From a virus: 25,273 bases of DNA. A program made the position numbers and the translations under genes. A model generated the notes under the pieces. That model was not told the origin of the DNA. It saw only the letters and a program-made list of their open reading frames with translations, and did no database searches. Positions 1,711 through 20,900 of this stretch are shown piece after piece. The stretch is from positions 1 through 25,273 of IMG/VR virus record IMGVR_UViG_3300048592_001209; one strand, written 5' to 3'. Position 1 is the first letter of the stretch; each line of letters starts with the position of its first letter.

Positions 1711-1740
1711 ACGTGCCATCCACACCACATGTTCCGAAAT

Positions 1741-1953: not shown

Positions 1954-1974
1954 AATTGCACGGTTGTGGTTGTC

Positions 1975-2805: not shown

Positions 2806-2815
2806 GGTCGCAGCG

Positions 2816-3986: not shown

Positions 3987-4450
3987 GCCGACGGCCCGAT
4001 GTCCAGAACCTGCACGAAGCTGTCGAAGCCGTTGCCGTGGAAGTCCACAGTGTTATTCGACGTGCGCCCCTGCAGCTTGACGGTGACGCTGCCGGCGGCC
4101 GGTGTGAACACCTTCGATGTTGCTTCGAGGCTGCAGTAGCCGTCGGCGGTGACCGAGGTGAGGCCGCCCCCGACGTTGTTCCCGTCGGCGACGATGAACA
4201 GGTACACCAGTCCGGCTGCGGTGCGCTGGCGGGCTGTGACGCTGGCGAGGGCGATATAGCGTCGGTTCGCTGCGGCGGTGAACGTGACGGTCAGGTCAGT
4301 CAGGTCAGTTCCGCCGGTGCCGACACCGCTTTGGATCGCCGACCGGATGGCTTGCGCCTTGTAGCCACGGTGGTTCAATTCGTCGACCACGGCGTTTCCG
4401 AACGTGGTCGGGTCGATGAGTGCGCCGGCGGTGACGGATGCGATGGGCAT
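3983..4450 (-). CDS. Putative tail fibre or distal tail structural protein
   Basis: The 155-residue protein has no cysteine cluster and no membrane segment. A short helical start (ALIDPTTFGNAVVDELNHRG) leads to a predicted beta-rich body rich in Thr, Val and Gly (LTDLTVTFTAAANRRYIALA, then TSKVFTPAAGSVTVKLQGRT). This pattern is typical of small actinophage minor tail or fibre-tip proteins that form jelly-roll-like receptor-binding domains. It sits between the large tail protein and the endolysin, the usual place for distal tail and host-recognition genes. Function is inferred mainly from position. Confidence 0.6.
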   Translation of the reverse strand: MPIASVTAGALIDPTTFGNAVVDELNHRGYKAQAIRSAIQSGVGTGGTDLTDLTVTFTAAANRRYIALASVTARQRTAAGLVYLFIVADGNNVGGGLTSVTADGYCSLEATSKVFTPAAGSVTVKLQGRTSNNTVDFHGNGFDSFVQVLDIGPSA

Positions 4451-4462
4451 GGTGTTCTCCTG

Positions 4463-5890: not shown

Positions 5891-7779
5891 AGCGGCCCCT
5901 GCGCACGTTGCCAGCGGCGTTGCGCGTCGACGACGTCGACCGGCCGCACACCGGCGGGGAAGTTCTGCGTCACGTAGGTGACCGACCCCGGCCCGCCGGC
6001 GGCGCCGCGCATGGCGGCGGCGGACTGGGCGGCGTTGAACACGGTCGCACCTTTGCGGCCGGCGGTGACGATCTCGGGCCCGTCCTCGCCGGCGACGAAC
6101 GTCTCGCCGGGGTCAGGTTGTCCGCCGCGGGCGAACTGGCGGAACCGGGCCGCCGCGACCACAGACGCTGTGGTGACGTTCGCTCCGATGCCGCGGAGCT
6201 TGCCGATCAACGAGTCCAGCGCAGCGTTCGCGCCGGAGGTGTTCGCAGTGACGGTCGTGTCGACGACGCCAGGGACGGCGAGCAGCTTGTCGATGTAGGG
6301 CTGGATGGCGGCGGCGTTGTTCGGGTACTGCTGCTGCATCGCTCGCAGCGCCTCGACCTGCAGGCGAGCGGAGTGGGCTGAGCCGTCGACGGCGCCCTGT
6401 TCGGCGGCGTACGCCTGTGCGGTGGCGAGCGCCTGTTCGGCGGTGGCGATCTCCTGGGAGCGCAGATCCCGGGACGCCTGCGCCTTCTCGGCGTCGGTCG
6501 ACGTGGCGTCGTTCATCACGGCGACGGTGTCGAGGTAGTTCTGCTCGAGGCGAGCGGCCGCGTCGGCGAGCTCGAGTTCGGCCTTCTCCAGCGAGTAGGT
6601 GTCGCCGGTGGCGTCGACCATCGACTTGGTGAGCTCCTCGATGCGCTCACGCGCGTCGGTGGCCTTCTCGGCGAGCTGCTCGGTCGCCTCGGCGTTCTTC
6701 AGGGTCGATTCGGCGGCCCACTCATCCCACTGCGAGTTCTCCTCCGTCGCCTTCGAGTAGTTGGCGCGAGTCTCGGTAGCGATCTCGATCGCGTTGTCCA
6801 GGTCGGAGATGGCGCGTTCGTAGCCGGTGGTGGTCTCACCAGTGCGCAGCGCCTCGTCGCGGGCGGCGACCATTGCGTCGCGCTGGTCGCGCAGCTTCGT
6901 GTTGACGGCGTCGAGCGCCGGCCCGCCGTCCTCGATCGCCGACACCCATTCGTCGTAGGCGACACCGGCGGCGATCAGATCCTTGGTGATGTCCTTCGTT
7001 CCCTCGAACAGCGGACCGATGCCACCGGCACGCCCGGTGATCGCCTCGGTTTCGGTGAGCATCTCGTTCACCGCCGACAAGCCATCCGCCGTTTCCTTCA
7101 CGGCCTCGCGGAACGATTCGACCTGCTCGTCGTTGAACGCCTTGGTGTCCGCAATGGACTGCATCGCCTTCGACACCACCCACATCGCTGCGGCCGTGCC
7201 GCCCAGCACCCCGAGCGTGCCGACGAGCTGCTTCGAGTTGATCTCGCCTTCGAGCGCACCTTCAGCCAACTGGCCCATCGACTCGGCGATCGCTCCGAGG
7301 TTGCCGATGCCGGGCAGCTCCGAGATCGACCCACCGATGCCACCGATCGCCACCGACGACGCCCTGCCGGTGCGTTCGGTCTCGCCCATCACCTTGTTCA
7401 GGTCGCTGAAACCGGCCCGGTCGGCCGACACCTTCACCTCGTCGATCCGCTTGAGCGCTGCGGCGAGCTCGTCGGCGTCCACCTCGATTTCCTGGGCTGT
7501 GAGACCCATCCGCTTCAGGTCACCGACCACAGCCTGCGGGTCGACGTCGACGTCGTCGAGCGCCAACTCGAGCGCATCCACCGCGCGACGGGTGGCGTCG
7601 ATCTCGGCGATCATGTCGTCGGCGGAGCGTTCGATCGCCCGGGCGAGGGTCTTGCCGGCCGATTCGGCTTCTTCGAGGGCGTCGTCGACGTCGCGGGCGG
7701 CTTTGGCTGCGTTCTCGAACTCGCGCACCGCGGCGCGTGTCTTGGCGTTCAGTTCGACGTCGACGGAACGGCGGGTCAT
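5887..7779 (-). CDS. Tail tape measure protein
   Basis: At 630 residues it is the longest phage gene product. It has a long N-terminal heptad-like coiled coil rich in Ala, Glu, Asp and Arg (from SVDVELNAKTRAAVREFENA onward), a central Gly/Ala-rich hydrophobic stretch (VGTLGVLGGTAAAMWVVSKA, about residues 185-205), more coiled coil, and a C-terminal part with ARGGQPDPGETFVAGEDGPE, a motif common at tape-measure C-termini. The protein sets tail length and enters the tail tube; at the usual 0.15 nm per residue it predicts a tail of roughly 95 nm. Start and stop overlap both neighbours by 4 bp. Confidence 0.88.
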   Translation of the reverse strand: MTRRSVDVELNAKTRAAVREFENAAKAARDVDDALEEAESAGKTLARAIERSADDMIAEIDATRRAVDALELALDDVDVDPQAVVGDLKRMGLTAQEIEVDADELAAALKRIDEVKVSADRAGFSDLNKVMGETERTGRASSVAIGGIGGSISELPGIGNLGAIAESMGQLAEGALEGEINSKQLVGTLGVLGGTAAAMWVVSKAMQSIADTKAFNDEQVESFREAVKETADGLSAVNEMLTETEAITGRAGGIGPLFEGTKDITKDLIAAGVAYDEWVSAIEDGGPALDAVNTKLRDQRDAMVAARDEALRTGETTTGYERAISDLDNAIEIATETRANYSKATEENSQWDEWAAESTLKNAEATEQLAEKATDARERIEELTKSMVDATGDTYSLEKAELELADAAARLEQNYLDTVAVMNDATSTDAEKAQASRDLRSQEIATAEQALATAQAYAAEQGAVDGSAHSARLQVEALRAMQQQYPNNAAAIQPYIDKLLAVPGVVDTTVTANTSGANAALDSLIGKLRGIGANVTTASVVAAARFRQFARGGQPDPGETFVAGEDGPEIVTAGRKGATVFNAAQSAAAMRGAAGGPGSVTYVTQNFPAGVRPVDVVDAQRRWQRAQGPL

Positions 7780-8261
7780 CGACCGAACCTGCGCAGCTTG
7801 GTGACGATGGCGTCGCCGATCGCTTCGGGGACGCGTTCGTCCATGAGGGCGAGTGCGTCGCTGATGGTGTCCTTGCCTGGTGAGGGCCGGTAGCGGCCGA
7901 CGGCGACGAACCGGCCGGCGGTGCCGACGGCTGCCCGACCGCGGGGTTTGCGGTTACCGCCACGGCGGGTCCGGGATCGTTTGGGGCGGATCACGCCGGA
8001 GCGTCGGCGGCCGTGTTCGGCGAGGATCCACAGTCCTTCGGGCCGCAGGTGCACCACGACGGGGTTGCCGAGGTCGTAGCCGGCGTTGAGGCCTGCGGCT
8101 TTGGACGGGATGCCGGAGAAGCGACGGTCGGCGCCGAGATCGCGGGCGGCGGTCTCCAGGGCGGCGGCTTTGCCGGCGGCGCCCATCGCGTGCTGTGTGA
8201 CGTCGTCGACGTCGACCAGGGCGACGAGCTCGCCGGCGAGGCGGGTGAGCTCGCGTGTCAT
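7776..8261 (-). CDS. Putative tail-completion protein (HK97 gp10-like)
   Basis: This 161-residue basic protein has an N-terminal helical segment (LTRLAGELVALVDVDDVTQH), a middle part with YDLGNPVVVHLRPEGLWILA followed by an Arg/Lys-rich stretch (RRRSGVIRPKRSRTRRGGNR), and a C-terminal helix. The layout resembles HK97 gp10-type tail-completion proteins and the equivalent small actinophage minor tail proteins. It lies between tube and tape measure, where siphophages normally encode the frameshifted tail assembly chaperone, yet it does not look like a chaperone. The 4-bp overlap with the tape measure suggests translational coupling. The family call is tentative. Confidence 0.5.
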   Translation of the reverse strand: MTRELTRLAGELVALVDVDDVTQHAMGAAGKAAALETAARDLGADRRFSGIPSKAAGLNAGYDLGNPVVVHLRPEGLWILAEHGRRRSGVIRPKRSRTRRGGNRKPRGRAAVGTAGRFVAVGRYRPSPGKDTISDALALMDERVPEAIGDAIVTKLRRFGR

Positions 8262-8265
8262 CGGA

Positions 8266-8679
8266 TCAGGGATCGGCAGTCAGCATCTGCAGCGAGTTCA
8301 CCGGGAACGTCTGCGTCATCTGGCGGGCGCCGTTGACTTCGGTGCCGATCTTGATCTCGGTGACGACGAGGTTCCCGACCCACAACGGGTTGTCTGCGCC
8401 GGTCGCGGCGGTGGAGTACTTCACGGAGAACGGGAGCTGCGCGTCGTCGGTGAGCATCGCGGTCCACAAGGCCCGGTGGATGGTGGCGGCGGCGAGCTCG
8501 TTCTTGCACGTGATCGTGCACGACGTCTTCATCGCGCCGGCTTCGTCGCGTTCCTCGGCGTCGCCGTACGTGGCGGGGATCGTCACCGTGTTCCGGGTGG
8601 GCATGAGGACGAACTCGGTGATCTCGAGGGAGTGGTCGGTGCCGTCGATCTCGACGACGGCTTCGAGCTGTGTGGTCAT
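8266..8679 (-). CDS. Major tail (tube) protein
   Basis: The 137-residue, beta-rich protein shows the pattern of phage tail tube proteins: a compact start (LEAVVEIDGTDHSLEITEFV), a central segment with ATYGDAEERDEAGAMKTSCT, and alternating beta strands to the end (VVTEIKIGTEVNGARQMTQT). It would polymerise as stacked hexameric rings around the tape measure. It lies downstream of the tail terminator gene, as expected. The length is near the lower end for tube proteins, in keeping with the small genome. Confidence 0.75.
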   Translation of the reverse strand: MTTQLEAVVEIDGTDHSLEITEFVLMPTRNTVTIPATYGDAEERDEAGAMKTSCTITCKNELAAATIHRALWTAMLTDDAQLPFSVKYSTAATGADNPLWVGNLVVTEIKIGTEVNGARQMTQTFPVNSLQMLTADP

Positions 8680-8693
8680 GGATGTGTTGCCTT

Positions 8694-9113
8694 TCAGGTG
8701 GTGATGTCGACGGGGAGGTCGACGGACAGCGATGCGATCTCGCCGACGTCGGGGTTGCCGAGCGACGTCGGTGCGGTGACGAGCTCACCGCGGACGTGCA
8801 GATCGGACCAGAACGCCGAGTCGTAGCCTTCGAGGCCGGCGGCGATGCCGGGCCACGACAGCCACCGGTCAAGGGTGCGTTGCGCCTGGTGGGCGTCTTC
8901 GCGTGCCACCTCGAGGGTGAGCGTGATCCGACAGGCTCGTTCCGATGCGTACTGGGCGTGGTAGACGATGGCGGTGGGGGCGCCGACGTGGACGGCGGGC
9001 AGGTTCGGGCCGGGGGCGACACGGTCGTAGACGGCGACACCGGCGAGAACGTCGATGGCGCCGAGCGCGACGGCGAGCTCGCGGCGGATCGCGACGAGGT
9101 CGAGGTCAGCCAA
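8694..9113 (-). CDS. Putative tail terminator protein
   Basis: The 139-residue protein has an N-terminal helix (LDLVAIRRELAVALGAI), a Pro/Gly-rich segment (VAPGPNLPAVHVGAP) and a central beta-helix-beta part with ERACRITLTLEVAREDAHQA, then a C-terminal strand. This arrangement is typical of tail terminator proteins of the lambda gpU / HK97 gp11 fold, which cap the tube at the head-proximal end. Position between the gp6-like connector and the tube gene supports this. The start overlaps the previous gene by 8 bp. Confidence 0.65.
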   Translation of the reverse strand: MADLDLVAIRRELAVALGAIDVLAGVAVYDRVAPGPNLPAVHVGAPTAIVYHAQYASERACRITLTLEVAREDAHQAQRTLDRWLSWPGIAAGLEGYDSAFWSDLHVRGELVTAPTSLGNPDVGEIASLSVDLPVDITT

Positions 9114-9423
9114 AGCGGATCAGCTCCCAACGGGCGAGCAGGGCGTGGATGTCGGGGTCGGACACAGAAACACGCAGCGGGCCCCAGTCGCCGACCGCTT
9201 CGACGCCGTTGGTGGAGTAGCGGCGCCGGTAGAGGCGGGCGGCGTACATGACGGCGGCCTGATTGACGCGGTCCTGGTCGACGTCGACGGCGTCGAGGTC
9301 GTAGAAGTCGCCGAGGGCGCCCACCGCGGCCGCGAACACGCGGTCGAGCAGCTCGGCGTCGACGACGCCGGCTCCGACGTCGAGCCAGGCTTCGACGTCG
9401 TCGGTGGTCGCGGTGACCGCCAC
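9106..9423 (-). CDS. Head-tail connector protein (gp6-like)
   Basis: This 105-residue, mainly helical protein resembles the HK97 gp6 / SPP1 gp15 connector family: a first helix (DDVEAWLDVGA), a second with LLDRVFAAAVGALGDFY, a third with RVNQAAVMYAARLYRRR, then a short YSTNGVEAVGDWG turn and a final helix (DIHALLARWE). Family members form a dodecameric ring under the portal that docks the tail. It sits after the capsid and before the tail terminator, as in HK97-type gene order. Confidence 0.7.
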   Translation of the reverse strand: MAVTATTDDVEAWLDVGAGVVDAELLDRVFAAAVGALGDFYDLDAVDVDQDRVNQAAVMYAARLYRRRYSTNGVEAVGDWGPLRVSVSDPDIHALLARWELIRFG

Positions 9424-9426
9424 CGC

Positions 9427-9759
9427 TCAGCCCTTGCGTCCTCTGCTGGGCCGACCGCGCCCGCCGGCGGGGTCGACACCGGCGGGCAGGGACCGGCGGC
9501 GCAGGATCTCGCGTCGCTGCTCGAGGCGGGCGATCTTGGCGTCGATGCGGGCGATGTTGGTGGCGTCCTGCTTCGCGCGGGTGACGGCCCGGTCCGTCCC
9601 CACCGCGGCCGCTGGCTCTGCGGCGTCGGTGGGGACGGGCACGGGTACGGGGGCGCCGTCCGCCTGGAGCAGCTGCTCGAGGTCGGCTTTGCGGGCGCCC
9701 GCTGGGTAGTCGATGCCGGCGGCGTCGAGCCGGTCCTTGACTTCGGCGACGGTCGCCAT
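9427..9759 (-). CDS. Small SAP/HeH-like domain protein of the head-tail module
   Basis: The ATG at 9759 overlaps the capsid stop as TGATG; a GTG one codon upstream is also possible. The 110-residue protein starts with a short helix-extension-helix unit (TVAEVKDRLDAAGIDYPAGA, then RKADLEQLL), typical of HeH/SAP-like domains found just after capsid genes in actinophages. A Pro/Val/Ala-rich linker follows (GAPVPVPVPTDAAEPAAA), then a helix ending in an Arg/Gly-rich tail. It may bind nucleic acid or decorate or complete the head; the exact role is unknown. Confidence 0.6.
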   Translation of the reverse strand: MATVAEVKDRLDAAGIDYPAGARKADLEQLLQADGAPVPVPVPTDAAEPAAAVGTDRAVTRAKQDATNIARIDAKIARLEQRREILRRRSLPAGVDPAGGRGRPSRGRKG

Positions 9760-11333
9760 CACACGACCTCGGGGACGATCATCCAGAGGCCGCGGGTGTC
9801 GGTGACGCCGTGGGCGCCGAACTGGTAGACGGCGACATCACGAGACAGCGTCGAGGGGACGTCCGCCGTGAGCGTGCCGACCGGGCCGAGGAAGGTGCGG
9901 TAGGCCTCGGAGTGGGCGACGACGGCGGTGTCGGTGTCGAGTTCGGGCTCGATCCGCCACGGCAGGGTGCGGTGCTCGCCGGCGTCGGTGTCGAGACGCA
10001 TCGTGCCCATGTGGTTGAACGCCGACAACGACGGGTAGATCGGGCGGCCGTCGGTGTCTTCGAGGTCGGCGAGGGTCTGCCACAGCGACGTCGACAGCAG
10101 GATGAACGACGGGAACTGCCGCAGCGTGCCGAACATGCCAGCGACGCAGGCGTTGACTGCCTGGTTGAACGTCGCGGTCATCTCGACCTGCTGCGGTGCC
10201 GGGGTGGCGGCGACGACGCCGTCGGCGACGGCTTCGTTGACCTCGAGCGCGAGGGCTTCGAGGTGCAGGCGGTTGACCTCGTTGAGGTACTCCGGCGACG
10301 AGCGCAGCACGGTCTGCAGCGACATGCCTTGGCCGCCGGCGAACGTGTCGAGCTCCCAGGTGACCGGGGTGATGACGACGGCCTGCGATGCGATCTCGGT
10401 GTTCTCGGTCGTCTGCTTGGCGGCGGTCGCCCGGGTCGTCACCTTCGGCTGCTTGACGGAGTCGCCTTCGTCCGGGAGCGGCCGAGACGAGAACATTTCG
10501 ACCGATGGCTGCACCTGGCGTTGCAGGTCGATGATCTCGCGGATCCAGGACTCGTGGACGAGACCGGTCTGCGCTGCGGTCGTCGTCGTGGCGAGGGCAC
10601 GCTGGTAGCGGGCGAGCTCGTCGCCGTCGATCTCGCCCTTCGCGGCGGCGAGAGCGAAGTGACCGAACGACCGGAACCGGCTGCCGGCGCGGGCGCCGCC
10701 GACGGCTGCGCCGGGACGAGGGGCCGAGCGTTGCCGGGAACGCTGCGACGTCGCCGTCGTGGTGTCGGCCGTCGTGTCGTCGGTCGTGGTGTCGTCGACG
10801 TCGTCGGTCGTGGTGTCGTCGACCTGGTCGACGTCGTCGGTGGTGTCGGTGGCGGTGATCATGGTTGCTCCTTCGGTGTTGGATCGGCGGCCGACGATGC
10901 GGGCGCCGGCGTGTTGGGGGTCGGTGGTGAACGCGAAGCGGCGCAGCTGCGCGCCGGATCGTTCGATCGAGGCGCCGGCGGCGACGGGGTGCGGGTCGTC
11001 GTCGAAGTCGATCGACACCGCCTCGTAGATGCCGGCGTCGACGTCGGCGAGGAAGTCACGGCCGGCGGACGACTGCGAGATGCGCACGTCGGCGTAGAGG
11101 CCGTCGTCGCGGTCGTCGACCTGGACGGCGCGGCCCACGATCTTGCCGTCGTGCTCGACTTCGCCGAGCAGACGCTCACCGGCGACGAGCCCGCCGCGCT
11201 TGAACGACTCGGAGTAGAAGTCGCGACCGTTGTCGGTGACCTCGGCGGGTGTGTTCCACGGAACGAGGCAGACGGTGAGGGTGTCACCGTTGACGGTCGG
11301 AGCGGTGGTGCGCAGGTGGCGGGTACGGATCAT
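9759..11333 (-). CDS. Prohead protease - major capsid fusion protein
   Basis: This 524-residue frame joins two phage head proteins. Residues 1-150 are an HK97-type prohead protease (U35): likely catalytic His in LLGEVEHDGKIVGRAV and Ser in IYEAVSIDFDD. Residues about 158-200 are a low-complexity Asp/Thr linker (TTDDVDDTTTDDTTADTTT), then an Arg/Pro-rich patch. Residues about 215-524 are an HK97-fold major capsid protein, with PEYLNEVNRLHLEALALEV and a C-terminal VYQFGAHGVTDTRGLWM. The start has a GGAGG 7 nt upstream and overlaps the portal stop as ATGA. A second ATG at codon 158 has its own AAGGAG, so a free capsid protein of 367 residues may also be made. Confidence 0.85.
   Translation of the reverse strand: MIRTRHLRTTAPTVNGDTLTVCLVPWNTPAEVTDNGRDFYSESFKRGGLVAGERLLGEVEHDGKIVGRAVQVDDRDDGLYADVRISQSSAGRDFLADVDAGIYEAVSIDFDDDPHPVAAGASIERSGAQLRRFAFTTDPQHAGARIVGRRSNTEGATMITATDTTDDVDQVDDTTTDDVDDTTTDDTTADTTTATSQRSRQRSAPRPGAAVGGARAGSRFRSFGHFALAAAKGEIDGDELARYQRALATTTTAAQTGLVHESWIREIIDLQRQVQPSVEMFSSRPLPDEGDSVKQPKVTTRATAAKQTTENTEIASQAVVITPVTWELDTFAGGQGMSLQTVLRSSPEYLNEVNRLHLEALALEVNEAVADGVVAATPAPQQVEMTATFNQAVNACVAGMFGTLRQFPSFILLSTSLWQTLADLEDTDGRPIYPSLSAFNHMGTMRLDTDAGEHRTLPWRIEPELDTDTAVVAHSEAYRTFLGPVGTLTADVPSTLSRDVAVYQFGAHGVTDTRGLWMIVPEVV
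10777..10823. repeat. Two 24-bp tandem repeats in the capsid linker
   Basis: Two adjacent copies (10777-10800 and 10801-10823) of a TCG/GTC-rich unit encode the Asp/Thr-rich linker between protease and capsid. The period is a multiple of three, so the repeat can change linker length without shifting the frame. Confidence 0.7.
10860..10873 (-). promoter_or_regulatory. Internal ribosome-binding site and ATG for free capsid protein
   Basis: On the minus strand AAGGAG (10873-10868) lies 5 nt before an in-frame ATG at 10862, exactly at the junction between the protease domain and the Asp/Thr linker. It is among the strongest Shine-Dalgarno matches in the phage operon. It would yield a 367-residue linker-capsid protein besides the full-length fusion. 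Confidence 0.65.
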
Positions 11334-12355
11334 GCGACGGCCTCCAGGCGTGGCATCGGGGCGACGACGTCGGGCATGCCGCCGGCGTCGGTCGGCGACA
11401 CGAGCCGGAACATGACGTCGGTGTCCATCGTGACTTCGACGCCGGCGAGCTCGGACCAGAAGTCCTCGAGGCGGGCGATCCAGGTCGGCACCAGCGAGAA
11501 CGACAACCAGCGGGCGATCTCGCCATGCACGTTCGAGTAGGTCATCGACCCGTTCGACTTGGCATTCGCGAGCGACGGTGGCGCGTTGACGAGACGGGCG
11601 ACCTCAGATGCGCACTGCTCGAGGATCCGCCCGATCGCTTCCATCTCGCCGTTGTTCGCCGGGACCTGCAGCTCCCAGCCGGCCGGGAGCACCGCGGGGC
11701 GGCGTTCCTTGCGGGCTTCGACCCAGTCCTCGGCGGCCTCGGCCGGTGAGTAGACGGTGTTGCCGGGCCCGGTGCGGCGCAGCACCGTGGACGGGTTGCC
11801 GCCACCGGCGAAGAACATCGACAGGTACGAGTAGGCGTAGCCGTACATCGTGAGCGGCTCGGACGCCATCGACAGCGGCGACCGGCCGATCGCACCGTAG
11901 CGCGGGTCGTCGTTGATCTTGAACCAATGGATCTGGTCCTTCGCGACGATCTCGCCGTCGTAGTACCAGAACGGCACGTTCAACGGGTCGTCCGGGTCGA
12001 AGCCCGGGCCAACACGGTTCGGGTCGAGCACGGTGATCGCGTCACGGCGCCGCGATGGCATCACGAACGCGTTGCCGGTCCACCACGCGGACTGGACCAG
12101 CTTGTGCACGGTGCTGTGGCGGGACTCGTCAGGGTTCGGACGGCGGATCACCTCCGGCGTCGTGCCGCGGCCGCCGGTCACCAGTGGCATCGCGGCGAGG
12201 ACGTCGGCGTGCAGGTTCGCGAGACCGACCGCCACCGGCAGCTCCCGGACGGGTATCGGGGCGCCGGCGACGCGTGCAGCGCCGAGTGCTACGATCACCT
12301 CGGTGACGAGGCTGACGTCGGAACGGGTGCGGCGCTGCCGGCGGCGGTCGAACAT
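11330..12355 (-). CDS. Portal protein (HK97 family)
   Basis: The 341-residue protein matches the HK97 phage portal family: the clip/stem region contains VHKLVQSAWWTGNAFVMPSR and WYYDGEIVAKDQIHWFKIND, followed by the conserved GAIGRSPLSMASEPLTMYGY and SMFFAGGGNPSTVLRR, and a C-terminal NAPPSLANAKSNGSMTYSNV. Portals form the dodecameric ring for DNA entry and the packaging motor. The protein is shorter than HK97 portal (about 420 residues), in line with a small capsid. It begins close to the divergent HTH gene, so a new promoter may start here. The stop overlaps the protease-capsid start. Confidence 0.88.
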   Translation of the reverse strand: MFDRRRQRRTRSDVSLVTEVIVALGAARVAGAPIPVRELPVAVGLANLHADVLAAMPLVTGGRGTTPEVIRRPNPDESRHSTVHKLVQSAWWTGNAFVMPSRRRDAITVLDPNRVGPGFDPDDPLNVPFWYYDGEIVAKDQIHWFKINDDPRYGAIGRSPLSMASEPLTMYGYAYSYLSMFFAGGGNPSTVLRRTGPGNTVYSPAEAAEDWVEARKERRPAVLPAGWELQVPANNGEMEAIGRILEQCASEVARLVNAPPSLANAKSNGSMTYSNVHGEIARWLSFSLVPTWIARLEDFWSELAGVEVTMDTDVMFRLVSPTDAGGMPDVVAPMPRLEAVA

Positions 12356-12373
12356 GCCCGACCAGTTGATCGA

Positions 12374-12400
12374 ACGGTCGTACGATCGTGTCGTGACCGT
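12374..12400. promoter_or_regulatory. Nested palindromes between portal and divergent HTH gene
   Basis: The 37-bp gap between the portal start (12355) and the HTH start (12393) holds ACGGTC (12374-12379) and its inverse GACCGT (12395-12400). Between and overlapping these are two perfect 8-bp palindromes, TCGTACGA (12378-12385) and ACGATCGT (12382-12389). Such packing in a divergent promoter gap suggests an operator, possibly bound by the HTH protein itself. Confidence 0.45.
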
Positions 12401-12587
12401 CCCTGATCACCACCGCGCGTCTCTGATGAGCGATGAGCAGGTCGCCGAGCTGCTCGGCGTGTCTCGCGGGACGGTGCGCCGATGGCGCTACGACGGGGAC
12501 CTTCCCTACGTGCGCCTCGGCCGAAACCTGGTGAGGATCTCCCGCGACGACGTCGACGAGCTCGTCGCCTCCCGGCGCGTCACGTGA
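12393..12587 (+). CDS. Small HTH protein inserted between portal and terminase (opposite strand)
   Basis: The GTG at 12393 gives 64 residues; an ATG at 12426 is also possible. The protein is a single helix-turn-helix of the excisionase/MerR type: MSDEQVAELLGVSRGTVRRW, then a wing-like LPYVRLGRNLVRISRDDVDE. It is the only rightward gene inside the leftward structural operon and overlaps the terminase 3' end by 8 bp, tail to tail. No CI-type repressor is visible elsewhere, so this or the HTH gene next to the integrase may be the lysogeny regulator or excisionase. Its exact job is unknown. Confidence 0.75.
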   Translation: MTVPDHHRASLMSDEQVAELLGVSRGTVRRWRYDGDLPYVRLGRNLVRISRDDVDELVASRRVT

Positions 12588-14127
12588 TGCGGTCGATGCG
12601 GGCGCCGGCGGGGAACAGGCGCCGGTAGTGGCCGAGCGCCCACGTGGCGGCCTGGATCGGGTCGAGGGGCACGTCGGCGGCGCGTTGATCGAACGCCCGG
12701 GCGCCGCCGAGGGGCCGCCACCGCGACCCTGCGGCCGCGGTGTTCAGGTCGGGCTGGTCCTGATGGGCGAAGCTGCGTTGCTCGAGCTCGTCGACGAGGG
12801 TGCCGCAGTGGCCGCCGACGTCGACGCCGGAGAGCTCGTCGACGGCGAGGCCGCGGCCGGCGGCGCGGTCGATGATGCCGCCGGCGCCGGCGGAACGGTC
12901 GGCGACGATCGCGACGGAGTGGCGGGCGGTGAGCTGCTCGAGGACGTCGACGACCCAGCCGGTGCCGGGACGTCGATCGACGACGACGCCGACGCGACCG
13001 TCGGGGAGGCCGCCGGCGACCGCGACGGAGGTGTGCGAGCGGGTCGGGTGGATGTGCACACCGGTGACGAACGGCGCCGTGATGGGCAGGTCGACGTCGG
13101 CGTCGCCGGCGGCTTCGGTCCACAGGTCCATGTCGATCGCCGAGGACTGGGCGATCGTCGGGCGCCGGCACAGCCACGCACGGTCGAAGTCGGCGTTGGT
13201 CATCGACGTCCGATAGGACCGGATCCGTTCCACGGTGATGGTGGTGCCGAGCGCCGGCATGCATTGCGCCCACACGGCGGGGTCGTCGCCGTCGGCGTCG
13301 TCGTCGGCTGACCACTCGAACAGGGCGATGCGGGCGTCGGGGTCGTTGATCGCGGCGAGGCCGACGTCCTGGTAGTGCAGCAGTAGGCCGTCGTCGCCTT
13401 CGCCGACGGTGGACACGATCGTCAACTGCGGATCGGCGCGGGTCGCCATCGTCGGCTGGATCGACGCGATCACGGAGGTGTCGGCGTAGACGAACGCTTC
13501 GTCGAGGACGCCGTCGTCGACGGTCTTGCCGTCGGCCATCGAGTCGTTCGACGGCACGATGAAGATCCTCGAGCCGAGCCCGGCGCCGGCGGTCCAGCGG
13601 ATGTGTGCGGAGCCGTTCGAGCGGCGTGGTTTGGTGCGAGGCCCGAAGTAGGGGTGGCGGGCGAGGTCACGGTCGTACCACTCGTCGATCAGTTTCTCGC
13701 GGGCCTTGTCGGCGTTCTGGGCGGCGTAGATCAGCTGACGCCACGGTGCGATCTCCGCCGAGCGGGCGAGCTTCGCGACGATGTAGGTCGTCTTGCCGTT
13801 CTGGCGCGGGATGATGATGACGATCAGGTCGTACCAGAGCAGCCCGGTCGCCGGGTCGAGCTCGTGGGCGACGTCGGCGATGAACCGCTGATGCGGCATG
13901 AAGTAGTCGCCACCGGTGAGCAGGAAGTGGTAGTCCTCGACGAGGCCGCCGACCGTCGGGCGTTCAAGGTTCCGTTCGGTCGTGAATCTTGGCGGACATC
14001 GCAGCGAAGAACTCGTCAACGGTGGTTGCGTCGATCTCAGCTCGGACGGGCGCCAGATCGCGGCGGATCGCTTGGAGCTGGCGGGCGGTGTTGATCTTGC
14101 CGTAGCGGTCGCCTTCGGCTTCGGCAC
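12580..14127 (-). CDS. Terminase large subunit
   Basis: The protein has the ATPase and nuclease arrangement of phage terminases. Walker A is IIPRQNGKTTYIVAK, Walker B is DDGVLDEAFVYA, and the coupling motif is TIVSTVGEG. The C-terminal RNase H-like nuclease domain has acidic residues in VTGVHIHPTR, VAIVADRSAGAGG and near the end. It cuts concatemeric DNA and drives it into the prohead through the portal. The GTG at 14127 has a GGGAG 7 nt upstream but overlaps the small terminase gene by 164 bp, and the first 50 residues look like low-complexity shadow coding. A TTG at 14019 is an alternative start without a good Shine-Dalgarno. Confidence 0.9.
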   Translation of the reverse strand: MPKPKATATARSTPPASSKRSAAIWRPSELRSTQPPLTSSSLRCPPRFTTERNLERPTVGGLVEDYHFLLTGGDYFMPHQRFIADVAHELDPATGLLWYDLIVIIIPRQNGKTTYIVAKLARSAEIAPWRQLIYAAQNADKAREKLIDEWYDRDLARHPYFGPRTKPRRSNGSAHIRWTAGAGLGSRIFIVPSNDSMADGKTVDDGVLDEAFVYADTSVIASIQPTMATRADPQLTIVSTVGEGDDGLLLHYQDVGLAAINDPDARIALFEWSADDDADGDDPAVWAQCMPALGTTITVERIRSYRTSMTNADFDRAWLCRRPTIAQSSAIDMDLWTEAAGDADVDLPITAPFVTGVHIHPTRSHTSVAVAGGLPDGRVGVVVDRRPGTGWVVDVLEQLTARHSVAIVADRSAGAGGIIDRAAGRGLAVDELSGVDVGGHCGTLVDELEQRSFAHQDQPDLNTAAAGSRWRPLGGARAFDQRAADVPLDPIQAATWALGHYRRLFPAGARIDRIT

Positions 14128-14386
14128 GGTCTATCTCCCGGGCGAGCAGCTGGTAGGTCGCCTCGAGCGCGGCGCAGGCGTCGGTGATGCGTCCGGCGAG
14201 GTCGACGAGGTCGGCGGCGGCGGCGAGCTCGACGGCACCGCGGCCGCCGGCGGCTGGTGGCAGCAGCGACAGTTGGTGTGTGCCGATGCGGACGGCGTCG
14301 AGGTGCACGACGCAGGTGCGTTGATGCGAGGCGAGGCCGCCGGCGTTGCCTGCCTTGCGGCCGCACTCGCAGACGTGTAACCGCAA
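13964..14386 (-). CDS. Putative terminase small subunit with zinc-finger-like N-terminus
   Basis: The proposed TTG start at 14386 has GAGGG 7 nt upstream and lies 10 bp after the HNH stop, giving 140 residues. The N-terminus has a C2HC-like finger (VCECGRKAGNAGGLASHQRTC). The C-terminal half is strongly helical with a predicted coiled coil (LVDLAGRITDACAALEATYQ, then IDRAEAEGDRYGKINTARQL). The position between HNH and large terminase, and the helical oligomerisation region, fit a DNA-recognising small terminase. No classical HTH is seen; the zinc finger may take over DNA binding. The family assignment rests on context. Confidence 0.6.
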   Translation of the reverse strand: MRLHVCECGRKAGNAGGLASHQRTCVVHLDAVRIGTHQLSLLPPAAGGRGAVELAAAADLVDLAGRITDACAALEATYQLLAREIDRAEAEGDRYGKINTARQLQAIRRDLAPVRAEIDATTVDEFFAAMSAKIHDRTEP

Positions 14387-14396
14387 ACCGGGACCC

Positions 14397-14717
14397 TCAC
14401 CGTTCCGGGGGAGAGAGAGACGCCGAATGCGGGGTCCACTGTGGGCCGCCCCCTCCAAAAACTGTGTGACGCCGCCGAGCCCGCGCCCGGCGGGTCCGAT
14501 CCGCGGCCCCGCGCCTCGAGTTGCACCGGGTGCACGAGGCGACCAGGTTGTCCAGGGTCGTCGGGCCACCCTCGCAACGTGGGATCGGCCAGTGATCCGA
14601 CGTCGACGCCCGACCACCGCACCACCTGCAGATGTACCGGTCGCGTTCGAGGACCTGGAGACGCAGCCGGCGGTGCAGGCTCCCGTACCCGCGGCGGGCC
14701 GCGGACAGCTTGCTCAC
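14397..14717 (-). CDS. HNH endonuclease (packaging-associated)
   Basis: The GTG at 14717 overlaps the previous stop as GTGA and gives 106 residues. The HNH motif is clear: LQVLERDRYICRWCGG, then STSDHWPIPRCEGG with the catalytic His, LDNLVASCTRCNSRRG with the Asn and the second Cys pair. HNH proteins next to terminases are known partners of the packaging machine in HK97-like phages, where they help the terminase cut cos ends. The gene order HNH, small terminase, large terminase supports that role here rather than a free-standing homing endonuclease. Confidence 0.88.
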   Translation of the reverse strand: MSKLSAARRGYGSLHRRLRLQVLERDRYICRWCGGRASTSDHWPIPRCEGGPTTLDNLVASCTRCNSRRGAADRTRRARARRRHTVFGGGGPQWTPHSASLSPPER

Positions 14718-14908
14718 AGCGCCGCCCGGACCGCAGCGTCTTTCGCCTCGAGCAGCTTGCGCAACGCCACCGTCAGCTCGGCACCGTCGAGGCCGCCCGC
14801 GGCGAGGGCGTGAGCGAGCTCGCAGAACGGGCGGGACACAGCGGCCAGGTGCTCGGGCAGGTGCTCGTGTTCGAAGTAGCGCAGGATAGCAGCAGTCGAC
14901 GGGTGCAT
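14714..14908 (-). CDS. 64-residue helical-hairpin protein, candidate Acb2/Tad1-type signal sponge
   Basis: The ATG at 14908 follows a GGGG a few nt upstream. The protein is nearly all helix: PSTAAILRYFEHEHLPEHLA, VSRPFCELAHALA, then ELTVALRKLLEAKDAAVRAA. The phrase HLP-x5-VS-x-PF-x2-LA followed by a final LRKLLEAKDAAVRA helix recurs in small actinophage proteins and resembles, by memory, the Acb2/Tad1 hairpin domain. Those proteins sequester cyclic nucleotides or gcADPR and so block CBASS or Thoeris defence. This is a family guess without a search. The gene is coupled to the HNH gene by a 4-bp overlap. Without the homology it would be a plain hypothetical early protein. Confidence 0.6.
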   Translation of the reverse strand: MHPSTAAILRYFEHEHLPEHLAAVSRPFCELAHALAAGGLDGAELTVALRKLLEAKDAAVRAAL

Positions 14909-14997
14909 GTCCCCGATCGTACGTTCCCGATGCCACACCAGAGGCGAATGGGCGGCTGTGTGGGCCCGTAGCGGCTCGCACACCCCGTTCTGTGGTG

Positions 14998-15231
14998 TCA
15001 GGGTGCGGGCGGGGTCGTGTTCGCGTCGGAGACGTCCACGGGGGGGCCGGTGATCCGCCAACGCAGCTCGGCCGGCAGGGGCAGCTGTTCGGGTTGGCGG
15101 CGCCGGAACCGGTACGACGCGAGATACATCGCCCACGCCCGCCGGCACGACCGGCACCGGCACGGATCACGACGCAGCCGGTACCGGCGCGTCGTGCCAT
15201 GCGGCGGATCCGGCAACGGCGGACGTGGCAT
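14998..15231 (-). CDS. Small basic Cys-rich phage protein
   Basis: The ATG at 15231 overlaps the previous stop (TGATG), giving 77 residues. A short C-x-C-x2-C cluster lies in LRRDPCRCRSCRRAWAMYL, surrounded by many Arg residues, followed by YRFRRRQPEQ and a Pro-rich tail. The cluster could bind a metal ion and the basic face nucleic acid. No known family is recognised. A gap of 89 bp follows before the Acb2-like gene, the longest gap in the early region, and may hold a regulatory signal. Confidence 0.6.
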   Translation of the reverse strand: MPRPPLPDPPHGTTRRYRLRRDPCRCRSCRRAWAMYLASYRFRRRQPEQLPLPAELRWRITGPPVDVSDANTTPPAP

Positions 15232-15401
15232 CAGCAGTACCGCGTGAGAACCATCTCGACAGTGACGTGGGTGCGCCAGTCCTCGAGGCGGATCCGGTGG
15301 TCGTCGACCTGGTGGTTGGATGCGGCGATCGCCGCGGAGCGGATGTCACCGGCGTCGACACGACCGCAGAGCGTGCACCGGTAGCGGGCCTGGCGGGTCA
15401 T
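15231..15401 (-). CDS. Small zinc-ribbon-like phage protein
   Basis: The start at 15401 overlaps the initiator stop as ATGA, giving 56 residues; in-frame codons upstream are unlikely starts. One Cys pair lies near the N-terminus (QARYRCTLCGRVDAG) with histidines in NHQVDDHRIR and a hydrophobic end (VTVEMVLTRYC). A Cys-x2-Cys plus His residues suggests a small metal-binding domain. No function is recognised. Tight coupling to the replication initiator suggests an early role. Confidence 0.55.
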   Translation of the reverse strand: MTRQARYRCTLCGRVDAGDIRSAAIAASNHQVDDHRIRLEDWRTHVTVEMVLTRYC

Positions 15402-15892
15402 GCCGCACATCCGCTGCATGGACGAACGTGACGATCATCGAGGTACTCCCATCCGGTGTCGTCGCACAGCTCGCACACCGAACGCTGAGGTATAGATCCC
15501 GTCCTATGTGGTATTGCGCGCACCGGTGCGCGGGTAGGCGCGCACCGGTGCGCGGGTTGTGGGTCACCGGTGCGCGGGTACTCGTCCTCCAACCTGCTCA
15601 CCGGTGCGCGGGTTGTGGATATCGCAGCAGCGATCGGGAATCGGGCGCGTAGCGGTGACGGTGGATTGCTCATCACCTCGATGAGGCCGGCTTCGCCGAG
15701 CTCGTGGATGGCACGGCGGATCGACTGCTCCGACATGCCGGTAGCGACCGACAGCCATCCTCCGCCGATCGCGATGGCGGTGCGCGAGCCGGCGGCTTCG
15801 GCGAGCAGCATGAGCACCAGCCGAGTCGAGGCACGCAGGTCGACACCGTGCTCGAGTTCGGCGCGTGCGTATTTGCTGGCTTGCCAGCTCAT
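15398..15892 (-). CDS. Winged-helix replication-initiator candidate carrying an internal origin
   Basis: The ATG at 15892 overlaps the preceding gene as ATGA, giving 164 residues. Residues about 1-85 form a winged HTH (MSWQASKYARAELEHG, LSVATGMSEQSIRRAIHELG, then EAGLIEVM), as in phage and plasmid initiators. Residues about 85-140 are low complexity and are encoded by four iteron-like DNA repeats. The end has a treble-clef-like zinc motif (VCELCDDTGW ... RPCSGC). DNA binding, then a spacer containing the origin, then a partner-recruiting C-terminus is the layout of lambda O. No helicase or primase gene is present, so the host replisome would be recruited. The initiator role is an inference. 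Confidence 0.65.
   Translation of the reverse strand: MSWQASKYARAELEHGVDLRASTRLVLMLLAEAAGSRTAIAIGGGWLSVATGMSEQSIRRAIHELGEAGLIEVMSNPPSPLRARFPIAAAISTTRAPVSRLEDEYPRTGDPQPAHRCAPTRAPVRAIPHRTGSIPQRSVCELCDDTGWEYLDDRHVRPCSGCAA
15521..15613. repeat. Iteron-like array: four copies of CACCGGTGCGCGGGT
   Basis: Identical 15-bp copies start at 15521, 15543, 15565 and 15599, with spacings of 22, 22 and 34 bp. The core CACCGGTG is itself a palindrome. A 22-bp period is about two helical turns, so bound proteins would line up on one face of the DNA. Directly after the last copy, TGTGGATAT (15614-15622) differs by one base from a DnaA box in reverse orientation. The array lies inside the initiator gene and is probably its replication origin. 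Confidence 0.7.
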
Positions 15893-16128
15893 CGGGCGAC
15901 CTCGCGTCGTGTGTCGCCGAACTGGTAGCGGTATTCGATGACGGCGAGCTCGGCGCCGGCGTGGAGGTCGAGGCGGGTGCGGCGGGCGTCGATGCGGCCT
16001 CGTGCGTAGGCCCATCGGACGGTGGCGTCGAGGCTTTCGCGTTGCAGGCGGACGAGTCGCCGGTCGATGCGCCAGCCGACGCATTTGACGATCGCCCACA
16101 CGGCTGCGGCGATGGCGATGGTGTTCAT
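15889..16128 (-). CDS. Small protein with N-terminal hydrophobic segment
   Basis: The ATG at 16128 overlaps the zinc-finger gene's stop as ATGA, giving 79 residues. It begins with a hydrophobic stretch (NTIAIAAAVWAIVKCVGW) that could be a membrane anchor, followed by a long Arg-rich helical region (RIDRRLVRLQRESLDATVRW, YARGRIDARRTRLDLHAGAE). No family is recognised. It lies immediately upstream of, and is coupled to, the initiator gene. It could anchor a phage complex at the membrane, but nothing in the sequence proves this. Confidence 0.55.
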   Translation of the reverse strand: MNTIAIAAAVWAIVKCVGWRIDRRLVRLQRESLDATVRWAYARGRIDARRTRLDLHAGAELAVIEYRYQFGDTRREVAR

Positions 16129-16595
16129 GCGGCGATGGGTGAGCGTTCGATCTGGGCGATGTCTCGTGCGTGTTCGACGCGGCAGTGGCGGGCGAGCCGG
16201 GAGATCGAGGGTGTCCGGAACAGGCACTCGGTGCACTCGTACACCTCGGCGCCGGCCGGCGCCGGGTGGGCTACTTCTGCGGTGGTTTCCGGTTTTTCGT
16301 CCACGGATGAGGGCGTGACATTGCTTGTAATAATTTTGCGCGGTTTGTCACAGTGCTTGACGTGCATGGCACGGCCGGCGTTGCTGGCGCAGACCTTGCC
16401 GCACGCCGGGCACGGCTCGACGGCAGGCGTGGAGACGACGTCGAGCTTGACGGCCGCCGGCTCGTCGACGACGACGGTGGTGAGGTCGATGGCGGCCTGG
16501 ACGAGTTCGAGTGATCGCATGATCCGTTCGAGTTCGCTGCGCAGCTCGGCGGCGGCGGCGTCGAGGTGCCGGCGGGTGGTGTCAGTAGTGGTCAT
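16125..16595 (-). CDS. Protein with two C2H2/C2HC-type zinc fingers
   Basis: The 156-residue protein starts with a helix (RRHLDAAAAELRSELERIMR), then has two zinc-finger-like motifs: CPACGKVCASNAGRAMHVKHC (C2HC, about residues 62-82) and YECTECLFRTPSISRLARHC followed by RVEH (C2H2, about residues 119-142). They are joined by an Ala/Pro/Glu/Thr-rich linker. Both fingers keep the C-x2-C and terminal H-x3/4-H/C spacing of DNA-binding fingers. A short AT-rich patch (around 16321-16335) in the linker-coding part is unlike its surroundings. It is probably a phage early DNA-binding protein of unknown target. Confidence 0.7.
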   Translation of the reverse strand: MTTTDTTRRHLDAAAAELRSELERIMRSLELVQAAIDLTTVVVDEPAAVKLDVVSTPAVEPCPACGKVCASNAGRAMHVKHCDKPRKIITSNVTPSSVDEKPETTAEVAHPAPAGAEVYECTECLFRTPSISRLARHCRVEHARDIAQIERSPIAA

Positions 16596-16770
16596 GGCGG
16601 GCTCGTTCCTGGAGTTGGCGGCGGAGTTGTTGGCGGGCGGCGTAGTAGCCGGCCGGGAGCGGCGGCGGCTTGCAGGTCTCGTGTCGGATGGTCCAGCGGC
16701 CGGCGACGAACTTGCCGCACACGTCGCACAGGTTCCCGACCACGCGGGTGTCGGCGAACGGGTCAGTCAT
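16582..16770 (-). CDS. Small zinc-knuckle protein
   Basis: The ATG at 16770 overlaps the upstream gene by 8 bp, giving 62 residues. A C-x2-C-x11-H-x2-C motif is visible in NLCDVCGKFVAGRWTIRHETC, followed by a basic helical tail (YYAARQQLRRQLQERARHDH). It looks like a single metal-binding finger with an RNA- or DNA-binding tail. No known family is recognised. It overlaps the following two-finger gene by 14 bp. Confidence 0.6.
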   Translation of the reverse strand: MTDPFADTRVVGNLCDVCGKFVAGRWTIRHETCKPPPLPAGYYAARQQLRRQLQERARHDHY

Positions 16771-16945
16771 GGCGGTCGCGCATCGCTCGTTCGAGGGTGG
16801 CGATCGCCACCTGGTCACCGGGTGCGTTGCGGGCGGCGTCGCGGAGGCGTGCGCGGTACCGGTTGACGTGCCACGGCCCGCCGGTGATCCAGCCGAGCAG
16901 CCACGACGAGGCGAGCATGACGCCCAGGGCGATCGCTTCGCTCAT
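16763..16945 (-). CDS. Small putative membrane protein
   Basis: The ATG at 16945 overlaps the upstream stop by 4 bp (ATGA), giving 60 residues. The N-terminal half is a membrane-like segment (EAIALGVMLASSWLLGWITG), followed by a basic helix (NRYRARLRDAARNAPGDQVA). One membrane pass with a cytoplasmic tail is likely. No family is recognised. It is the second small early protein with an N-terminal hydrophobic helix in this operon. Confidence 0.55.
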   Translation of the reverse strand: MSEAIALGVMLASSWLLGWITGGPWHVNRYRARLRDAARNAPGDQVAIATLERAMRDRHD

Positions 16946-17190
16946 CGGTCCGTGCCGGGGTTGCCGAACGCTCTCGGTGTGCTGATCGTGACGTCGTCGG
17001 GATGTGGCGGCTCGGCGAGGACCTCGCAGAGATGCCGGAACATCTGGGAGTGGACCTCGAGCAGGGTGAGCTCCACCGGCGTCGACCAGAACCGGTGTTG
17101 GGAGTCGAGCACCACACACGCGCCACGCAGACGGCCGTCGCGTCGGGCGTCGTCGTAGGTGTCGTACGCGAGGACCGGCCGCTGCATCAT
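16942..17190 (-). CDS. Hypothetical early phage protein
   Basis: Two adjacent ATGs (17190, 17187) can start this 82-residue protein; the first overlaps the preceding stop by 4 bp. It begins with a helix-like DTYDDARRDGRLRG, then a short strand (GACVVLDSQHRFWSTPVE) and a helix with LLEVHSQMFRHLCEVL. No motif or family is recognised. It is embedded in a translationally coupled operon, which supports it as real. Confidence 0.55.
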   Translation of the reverse strand: MMQRPVLAYDTYDDARRDGRLRGACVVLDSQHRFWSTPVELTLLEVHSQMFRHLCEVLAEPPHPDDVTISTPRAFGNPGTDR

Positions 17191-17663
17191 GCGGCGCTCC
17201 GCATGCGCGGCGGCCCCCACGCCCCGTTGACGGCAGCCAGGCGGCCGCTGCCGTCGGGACACGACCAGCGGCCGAAGTGGGTTGGGTGGCAGTACTGGGA
17301 TACGAACGGCCGGCCCGGCCCGCGCGCGTGGCGTGGATCGATCGAGACGGGTTCACCGCAGTGATCGCACACCATGCCGGTCGGCGCAACCAGCTCGGTG
17401 GTCACGCCGGCACCTTGCAACAGACGTTCACGGACGGCGTCAGCCGTCCGGGCCCTCAGGTTCAAGTGTGCGGCGCCCGGGCCGAGCAGCTCGACGAACG
17501 CTTCGATCTGATCCGAGATCTCGTCGACCAGGTCGACAACCGTGGCGCCAGCTCCGATTCGAGACACCTCGAGCAGCTCGCTCGACAGCTCCAAATCCTC
17601 GATCTCGCTGGCCATCACGCGAGAGCTCCGCAGATATCCCCACCTGCGGTTGGGGAAATCCAC
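17187..17663 (-). CDS. First early gene: helical protein with C-terminal zinc-binding motif
   Basis: It starts at a GTG (17663) with GAGG 9 nt upstream, or at the ATG near 17615. The N-terminal half is helical and acidic (EIEDLELSSELLEV, then VVDLVDEISDQIEAFVELLG). The C-terminal half has several Cys/His residues (VCDHCGEPVSIDPRHARG, SQYCHPTHFGRWSCPDGSG), compatible with a metal-binding fold. No family is recognised. It is the first gene of the leftward operon, and the region upstream of it must hold the main early promoter. Confidence 0.6.
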   Translation of the reverse strand: MDFPNRRWGYLRSSRVMASEIEDLELSSELLEVSRIGAGATVVDLVDEISDQIEAFVELLGPGAAHLNLRARTADAVRERLLQGAGVTTELVAPTGMVCDHCGEPVSIDPRHARGPGRPFVSQYCHPTHFGRWSCPDGSGRLAAVNGAWGPPRMRSAA

Positions 17664-17666
17664 ATG

Positions 17667-17672
17667 GTTATA
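17667..17672 (-). promoter_or_regulatory. Possible -10 box of the leftward early operon
   Basis: On the minus strand TATAAC lies just upstream of the first early gene in a locally AT-rich stretch. It is only 3 nt from the GTG at 17663, so if used it favours the downstream ATG near 17615 as the real start. No convincing -35 was found. Confidence 0.25.
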
Positions 17673-17915: not shown

Positions 17916-20900
17916 ATGTCAATCGCACTCGACCGCACCGCTGACGGCACGATCGGACTCGGGCGCCTGTTCACGTCAGCCGGCGTCGACCCGTACGCCG
18001 AGGTCGTGTGGGAGCGACGCGATGCACGTCTCACGAACTGGCTCGACGGGTCGGTGGCGTTCGAACAGCTCGGCGTCGAGTTCCCGAGCACATGGTCGCT
18101 CAACGCGACGAACATCGTCACGCAGAAGTACTTCCGCGGCACGCTCGGCACGCCTGAACGTGAGTGGTCGCTCAAGCAGGTCGTCGACCGCATCGTCGAC
18201 ACGATCACCGACTGGGGCGTCGCCGACGGCTACTTCGACGGCGACGAGGCCGAGGCGTTCCGCGCCGAACTGAAGTACATCATGATCACCCAGCGAGCGG
18301 CGTTCAACAGTCCGGTGTGGTTCAACATCGGCGTGCAGGGGGTGCCGCAGCAGGCGAGCGCATGTTTCATCCTGGCCGTCGACGACGAGATGCCGTCGAT
18401 TCTCAACTGGTACCGCGAGGAGGGCCTGATCTTCAAGGGAGGATCCGGTGCCGGGGTGAACCTGTCGCGGATCCGATCGTCCTTGGAGCCGCTCGACGGC
18501 GGCGGTACCGCATCGGGTCCGGTCAGCTTCATGCGCGGCGCCGATGCGTCGGCGGGCACGATCAAGTCGGGTGGCAAGACCCGTCGAGCGGCCAAGATGG
18601 TCATTCTCGACGCCGCCCATCCCGACATCGAGCAGTTCGTGTGGACCAAGGCGATCGAGGAGCGCAAGGCGCGTGTGCTCGCTGAGGCCGGCTTCGACAT
18701 GGGACTCGACGGTGCCGATTCGTTCTCGGTCCAGTACCAGAACGCCAACAACTCGGTCCGGGTCACCGACGAGTTCATGCAGGCCGTCGTCGACGATGCG
18801 GATTGGGACCTCACGGCGGTGACCACCGGCGAGGTGCTGCGCACGGTGAAGGCCCGTCAGCTGTGGCGCGAGATCGCCGAGGCGGCGTGGGAGTGCGCCG
18901 ATCCTGGCCTGCAGTTCGACACCACGATCAACCGCTGGCACACCGCCCCCAACCACGGCCGGATCACCGCCAGCAACCCGTGTTTCACCGCCGACTCACT
19001 CGTTCACACCGACAAGGGATTGATCCGGTTCGACGAGCTCTTCGCCCGCGCCAATGTCGGCGAAGAGTTCCAGGTGTGGACTCACGACGTCACCAACGTC
19101 GATGCTCCGGCACAGCTTGTGCACCTGACGACTCCAGATGCATTCATGATCACCGGCAGGAACCCGGTCCAGCGTCTCCGATTCAGCAACGGGATGGAAC
19201 TGCGCTGTACCCCGTCGCACCGGATCTTCACACTCAATCGCGGCTACGTCGAGGCTGACGAGCTGACCGCCGACGATCGCGTCCGCTCGCTCGACCTCCC
19301 GACGCCCCCGACCAATGCAGACTGGGCCGTGCCCATCCGGACCGACTGGGAACACTATCGGGAGAAGGGTGATCGGGATCGTCCATTGCTGCTCCCCGAT
19401 GTCTGGAACGACACCTTTGCCCACTACGTCGGATGGCTGGTCGGTGATGGATCGACGTCGGGCACGTCGACGGTGACGATCTATGGCTCCGCGGACGACC
19501 GCACGGAGATCCTCTCGGCACACCACGAGTTGCTCGAAGGCATCAACGCCGGTCGGCCGATCAAGTTGAGTGAGCAGGCAAACGGCACCGTGCAGTTGCG
19601 GCTCACCCGGCGCCCGCTGAAGCGCTTCTTCGAGGCGTTGGGCGTCGGGTCGGTCACCGGTGAGCACAAGACGGTCCCTTGGGCGATCGAACAGGCGCCG
19701 CCGGAGATCGTCGCCGCGTTCCTTCGCGGGCTCTTCGACGCCGACGGGTGTGCCGTGTACAACCCCGAGAAAGGTTCCTACGTCGGTCTCGGCTCGATCT
19801 CCGTCGAACTGCTTCGCGGCGTGCAACGGCTTCTGTCAACATTCGGCATCTCGTCGAAGATGTACAACGTTCGGCGCCCGGGTGCAACGAGCTTCAGCTA
19901 CGAGCGCAAGGATGGCTCGGTGGCGGACTACGTGTCCAAGGCGTCGTTCGACCTGCGGATCACCGGCGCGAGTATGCACACCTTCGCTTCGGCCATCGGA
20001 TTCTCGCTCTCACGCAAGGCCGAAGTCCTCCGAGACGCCGTCATCGGTCACGAGACCTATGATGTCGACACGTCGATCCGGCTCGTCGACCGTCTCGACG
20101 AAGGCATCGAACTCACCTACAACCTGTCCGAACCGCGCAACCACTCGTACGTTGTCAACGGTGTCGTGGTGCGCAACTGCAGCGAGTATTTCCACGTCGA
20201 CAACAGCGCGTGCAATCTCGCGTCGATCAACCTGCTGAAGTATCTGCAAGACGATGGTGGCTTCGACGTCGGAGCGTTCACCCACACCGTCGACACCGTC
20301 TTCACCGCCCAGGAGATCCTGGTCGGACGAGCCGACTACCCGACCGAGAAGATCGGCGACACGACCCGTGCGTTGCGCCAGCTCGGCCTCGGCTACGCGA
20401 ACCTCGGTGCGCTGCTGATGGCACTCGGCCTGCCCTACGACTCCGACGACGGTCGAGCATGGGCGGCGGCGATCACGTCGCTGATGACCGGCTCCGCCTA
20501 CGCTGCCAGCGCTCGCACCGCAGCAGCCGTCGGCCCCTTCGACGGGTTCGCCGACGAGTCCGATGCCATGCTTCGCGTCCTCGAGATGCACCAGCAGGCC
20601 AACGATCGCCTGGCCGAGAACCCGGCGCTGCCCGACGACCTGGTCGGCGCGGCTGCCGACGCGTGGGGGCGCGCGATCAGCGACGCCCACCGCCACGGCG
20701 TCCGCAACAGCCAAGCGACCGTCCTGGCGCCCACGGGGACCATCGGGCTCGCCATGGACTGCGACACGACGGGCATCGAGCCGGACCTCGCGCTGGTCAA
20801 GACGAAGAAGCTCGTCGGTGGCGGCACGATGTCGATCGTCAACCAGACCATCCCCCGAGCGCTGCGCCGCCTCGGCTACACCCCCGAGCAGGTCGACGAC

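Follow-up and report, generated by a model that had tools for sequence, protein, structure and literature searches.

Phages lambda, SPP1, TP901-1 and Tuc2009 have already established that a replication origin can be located inside the gene of the protein that acts on it. In phage lambda, ori-lambda lies in the middle of the initiator gene O; four iterons are followed there by an AT-rich tract, and the DNA-binding part is encoded upstream (PMC7466680). The Bacillus phage SPP1 has its oriL in gene 38, with direct repeats and an AT-rich unwinding element (PMC6316719), while the replisome organizers of the lactococcal phages TP901-1 (ORF13) and Tuc2009 (Rep2009) bind direct repeats within their own genes (PMC8965321). 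The latter paper, as it presents Weigel and Seitz (2006), describes some P335 phages that have an initiator without a loader. An intragenic origin has also been suggested earlier for mycobacteriophage RepA. As far as the literature that we found shows, mapped origins are scarce among actinobacterial phages.

The window analyzed here, a 25,273-bp stretch of viral DNA, contains a comparable locus. A gene on the minus strand (15398-15892) encodes a predicted replication initiator of 164 aa; the linker-coding part of this gene includes a segment, 15486-15622, which we predict, with a probability of roughly 0.88, to serve a small temperate phage as its replication origin. This prediction is supported by the array of repeats, the homology of the winged helix, a neighboring AT-rich tract and a layout that is conserved in relatives, all of which were observed. 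Lambda O with ori-lambda and the lambdoid Stx phages share with this locus the mid-gene position of the putative origin, four iterons, the AT-rich tract and the upstream DNA-binding part. No close sequence similarity was found between the proteins, only weak PHROG matches to O-like families. Unlike lambda, the window combines a 164-aa protein that ends in a cysteine tail with a DnaA-like site, and it has no adjoining P-type loader gene; the helicase-loader gene that accompanies the initiator in the lambda O family was not found among the ORFs scanned. SPP1 gp38/oriL also has direct repeats and an AT-rich element inside the gene of an origin-binding protein, but this phage has a second origin, its own loader gp39 and its own helicase gp40. 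TP901-1 and Tuc2009 come from a different host phylum, and they are likened to the window by layout, not by sequence comparison. As far as our searches show, the new aspect is the host group.

The phage is present as a prophage of about 15.9 kb. The two flanks align to adjoining segments (3127-3688 and 3671-4318) of locus L006 from an Ilumatobacteraceae genome; since the flanks are contiguous in L006, this locus represents the empty site and the prophage extends from about 1736 to 17672. The left and right ends carry imperfect att cores, GAAATTCACATGTTT and GAAATCCACATGGTT respectively. The flank with the ribonucleotide reductase gene shares 83% identity with the same genome, and the host is a member of the actinobacterial Ilumatobacteraceae. 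The host ribonucleotide reductase gene on the right side of the prophage is interrupted in frame by an intein-like insert (18981-20177, about 398-399 aa), which begins with CFTADSLVH and ends with VVVRN ahead of CSEYFHV.

The prophage encodes an integrase, an endolysin, a major tail protein, a tail terminator, a connector, a capsid-protease fusion, a portal, a terminase and an HNH protein. TerL (E up to 8e-29) and the connector (E up to 5e-11) match those of 14-18-kb actinophages, and the HNH protein is also similar. Judged by these three proteins together with size, gene order and the capsid-protease fusion, the prophage belongs to the 14-18-kb group of actinobacteriophages. PHROG scans recognized no helicase, loader, primase or polymerase among the prophage ORFs scanned; this agrees with the first-pass annotation, which had reported the lack of a helicase gene. 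A GC-skew switch was not found at 15.5 kb, nor is one expected in an integrated prophage. Two other genes were observed on the minus strand of this region. The first (14714-14908), between the initiator and HNH genes, encodes a small conserved protein (phrog_1761, E 4e-25); the second (16125-16595) encodes a protein of the early operon in which two zinc motifs resemble the C2H2 type (CPACGKVCASNAGRAMHVKHC and CTECLFRTPSISRLARHCRVEH), and has no PHROG match.

The 164-aa protein is composed of an N-terminal winged helix (aa 1-75), a low-complexity linker that is encoded by the repeat-containing DNA, and a C-terminal tail with four cysteines (CELCDDTGW...VRPCSGC). Its direct homology is weak without an intermediate profile. 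The top Pfam match was HTH_36 (E 0.0012), which is generic and below the cut-off; the Pfam scan listed generic HTH and RP-C domains and no phage O family. Direct PHROG matches were to replication initiation families with E 0.002-0.03. The whole protein found no match in a tblastn search against phages, and residues 1-77 gave a best E of about 0.4, which is not significant alone. Several of the proteins matched at this level or above (E of at least about 0.4) carry the annotation of a replisome organizer, a primosomal protein or a replication initiation protein; 15-kb Arthrobacter phages account for two of the matches.

A second-round search starting from Arthrobacter phage Whytu gp17 resulted in a family at E ≤1e-3. 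The profile of this family, built with the window protein excluded, found the window ORF among 2039 ORFs at E 7e-9; after addition of two relatives that had been found via the window protein the value was 3e-10. The initiator-family HMM picks the window ORF alone, and the runner-up unrelated ORF in these scans scored 6-10 bits. PHROG assigns Whytu gp17 (E 6e-22) and Gordonia phage Soos gp71 (E 1e-18) to the family "replication initiation protein". On this profile evidence the 164-aa protein is remotely homologous to phage proteins annotated as replication initiators, and the earlier view that the repeats lie in the gene of a winged-helix initiator is upheld. A C-terminal cysteine tail that, judged by eye, is of a like type (CNDCDEFGW...VRC) is present in Soos gp71 as well. 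A common C-terminal tail with Rhodococcus phage Whack gp38 was also considered, but the HMM did not support it (E 0.4). A single-sequence structure model was poor, with a pLDDT of 42 that is too low for a fold search. The 164-aa protein alone gave only weak matches in 221 Ilumatobacteraceae genomes, nearly all of them in the linker. Peptide-pattern scans for the initiator, terminase, capsid and portal in viral contigs, and for the initiator in genome contigs, gave zero or one distant match.

The array consists of four identical copies of CACCGGTGCGCGGGT on the plus strand, at 15521-15535, 15543-15557, 15565-15579 and 15599-15613, with starts 22, 22 and 34 bp apart. No fifth site with up to one mismatch occurs elsewhere in the 25,273-bp record, and no other 15-mer of the window reaches three copies within 200 bp. 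On the coding strand, where the unit reads ACCCGCGCACCGGTG, the copies are translated in frames 0, 1, 2 and 0: the copy at 15599-15613, which comes first, gives TRAPV, the one at 15565-15579 YPRTGD, the one at 15543-15557 QPAHRC and the one closest to the AT-rich tract (15521-15535) TRAPV again. Both the spacing and the use of all three codon frames are exactly as the first-pass annotation had described them. The unit has a palindromic core, CACCGGTG, and the last two copies on the coding strand fall in 16-bp perfect palindromes at 15539-15554 and 15517-15532 respectively. In a chance control, clusters of a 12-mer in three copies were absent from all of 200 order-2 Markov sequences. The initiator gene was also reshuffled 5000 times with synonymous codons; a 10-mer occurred three times in 3 of these sequences, and a 9-mer or 10-mer occurred four times in none. 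The four-copy array exceeds chance and codon constraint by far.

Five bp past the array, directly 3' of it, starts an AT-rich tract (15486-15515) that had previously been overlooked. This candidate DNA unwinding element has 43% GC compared with 68% GC in the window; it is the gene-wide minimum and is among the lowest 0.5% of prophage 30-mers. The array is flanked on the opposite side by a DnaA-box-like site, ATATCCACA, at 15614-15622 on the minus strand. The site has one mismatch to the E. coli-type consensus TTWTNCACA and is one of four such sites (≤1 mismatch) in 25 kb. It has two mismatches from TTGTCCACA, the form of the DnaA box beside dnaA in the nearest host relative. Because of these two mismatches, the site that had been called a near-perfect DnaA box is present but its quality was overstated, and it is no more than suggestive of a role in the origin. 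Perfect DnaA boxes are found within the same linker in the cluster FE Arthrobacter phages Whytu, Piku, Yavru and BlueFeather.

We compared this layout with that in 21 non-redundant relatives, from which the window was excluded. An array, defined as three or more exact 9-mers within 150 bp, is present past the winged-helix domain in 14 of the 21 relatives; among 153 control tiles taken from the same phage loci, 4 have one (Fisher p 2e-12). The relatives are related or HMM-retrieved genes of unequal security: VSN-002 and LASTA were found via the window protein, and some of the Acidimicrobiia matches are partial. Arrays of 3-6 repeats occur in the Pseudomonas phages U2, U7 and SC_8, Sphingopyxis phage VSN-002, the Arthrobacter phages BlueFeather, Galaxy and KHumphrey, Gordonia phage Soos, Bifidobacterium phage Bbif-1, Curtobacterium phage Root and four Acidimicrobiia loci (L077, L079, L080 and L090). 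The repeats are specific to each phage and unrelated in sequence, and they are mostly spaced by 17-25 bp. The order is common: winged helix, iteron array, AT-rich tract and C-terminal part. In the window the AT-rich minimum of the gene immediately follows the array on its 3' side, as it does in most relatives, the exceptions being Galaxy, KHumphrey and SC_8. This recurrence, together with the initiator homology, bears out the lambda-O-like layout proposed in the first-pass annotation. Relatives that keep the protein and lack the repeats, which it had named as evidence against an origin, exist alongside the 14 that carry an array; no exact array was found in the remaining seven (Whytu, LASTA, Jessica, L078, L082, L083 and L088), several of which are weaker or partial matches, and in Whytu the array position is occupied by a degenerate repeat and two DnaA boxes. 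These comparisons suggest that origins of this kind often keep their position in the linker of a winged-helix initiator, although the repeats themselves change in sequence.

Could the repeats serve another purpose? The protein might be a transcriptional regulator that controls the early operon, with the repeats as its operators. Winged helices are common among regulators, the best solved-structure matches of the protein are CRP-type regulators and the repeat core CACCGGTG is palindromic. However, the array is in the middle of the gene and not at a promoter, and the adjacent AT-rich tract fits an origin. Furthermore, replication initiator is the name given to the homologues, some of which adjoin helicase and loader genes: the Pseudomonas U2 and U7 relatives are next to a DnaC-like loader and a DnaB-like helicase, or a primase/helicase. 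Among the profile matches in Acidimicrobiia genomes an array was present in 4 of 9 non-CRP-type proteins but in 0 of 8 CRP-type decoys. It is therefore improbable that the repeats are operators; since an initiator may also autoregulate, operators and an origin are not fully exclusive.

It is even less probable that the repeats are neutral duplications with no function in the DNA. The GC-rich linker is of low complexity and the codon-position bias is weak there, as this explanation would predict, but all 15 bp agree between copies that are read in three frames, while the DNA between them is dissimilar, and unrelated repeats with similar spacing occupy the same place in the relatives far more often than in the controls. 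Least probable of all is that a site for partition, packaging or immunity stoperators lies by chance within the initiator gene. Arrays of direct repeats are indeed found at actinophage parS sites (PMC7157519). No parA/parB-like gene was recognized among the ORFs scanned, and a single array next to an AT-rich tract is the pattern common to the initiator genes of distantly related phages.

If 15486-15622 is the origin, induction and excision would allow the leftward early operon to make the 164-aa protein, whose winged helix would bind and form a nucleoprotein complex with the four iterons. The AT-rich tract beside the array would then melt, and the host helicase and replisome would be loaded. 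Because no helicase or loader was recognized in the phage, loading may occur via the C-terminal cysteine tail and/or host DnaA. With the sites in a disordered linker, selection on the DNA could keep the repeats and any of the three reading frames would be tolerated. A more far-reaching possibility, which we regard as tentative and rather unlikely, is a minimal replicon without helicase or loader in which the protein uses its cysteine tail and/or host DnaA to bring in the actinobacterial helicase machinery directly, at an intragenic origin of about 140 bp. The prophage stands out by having no recognized helicase or loader beside its predicted intragenic origin, and tiny phages of this kind offer a minimal system for studying how a phage initiator loads the host helicase. 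A conserved origin place with a changing repeat also yields a simple rule by which origins, and pairs of initiator and site, can be predicted.

Similar phages are known from Arthrobacter and Curtobacterium. BlueFeather (gp21), Whytu (gp17), Root (gp22) and Berka (gp25, "RepA-like") have genomes of 15-16 kb and, like the window prophage, a capsid-protease fusion and a DNA-binding initiator gene at the same place; sequence identity is low. BlueFeather, Root and Berka carry arrays within this gene, as the window prophage does, whereas the Whytu-type phages have DnaA boxes instead of an exact array. The initiator of Berka is of another type (E 0.11 with the initiator HMM). Its gene carries its own array of TTGCGATGCAC with a period of 15 (L096, 14003-14060), followed by an AT-rich minimum; the intragenic layout is thus common to two unrelated initiator types. 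The winged-helix initiator is not universal in 14-18-kb actinophages, as Berka illustrates, and several others, e.g. Atraxa and MooKitty, have no initiator match. In these two phages nearly 800 bp upstream of the HNH region are devoid of annotated genes (Atraxa, L106 13592-14376; MooKitty, L108 14515-15286), and these gaps are possible sites of a different kind of origin.
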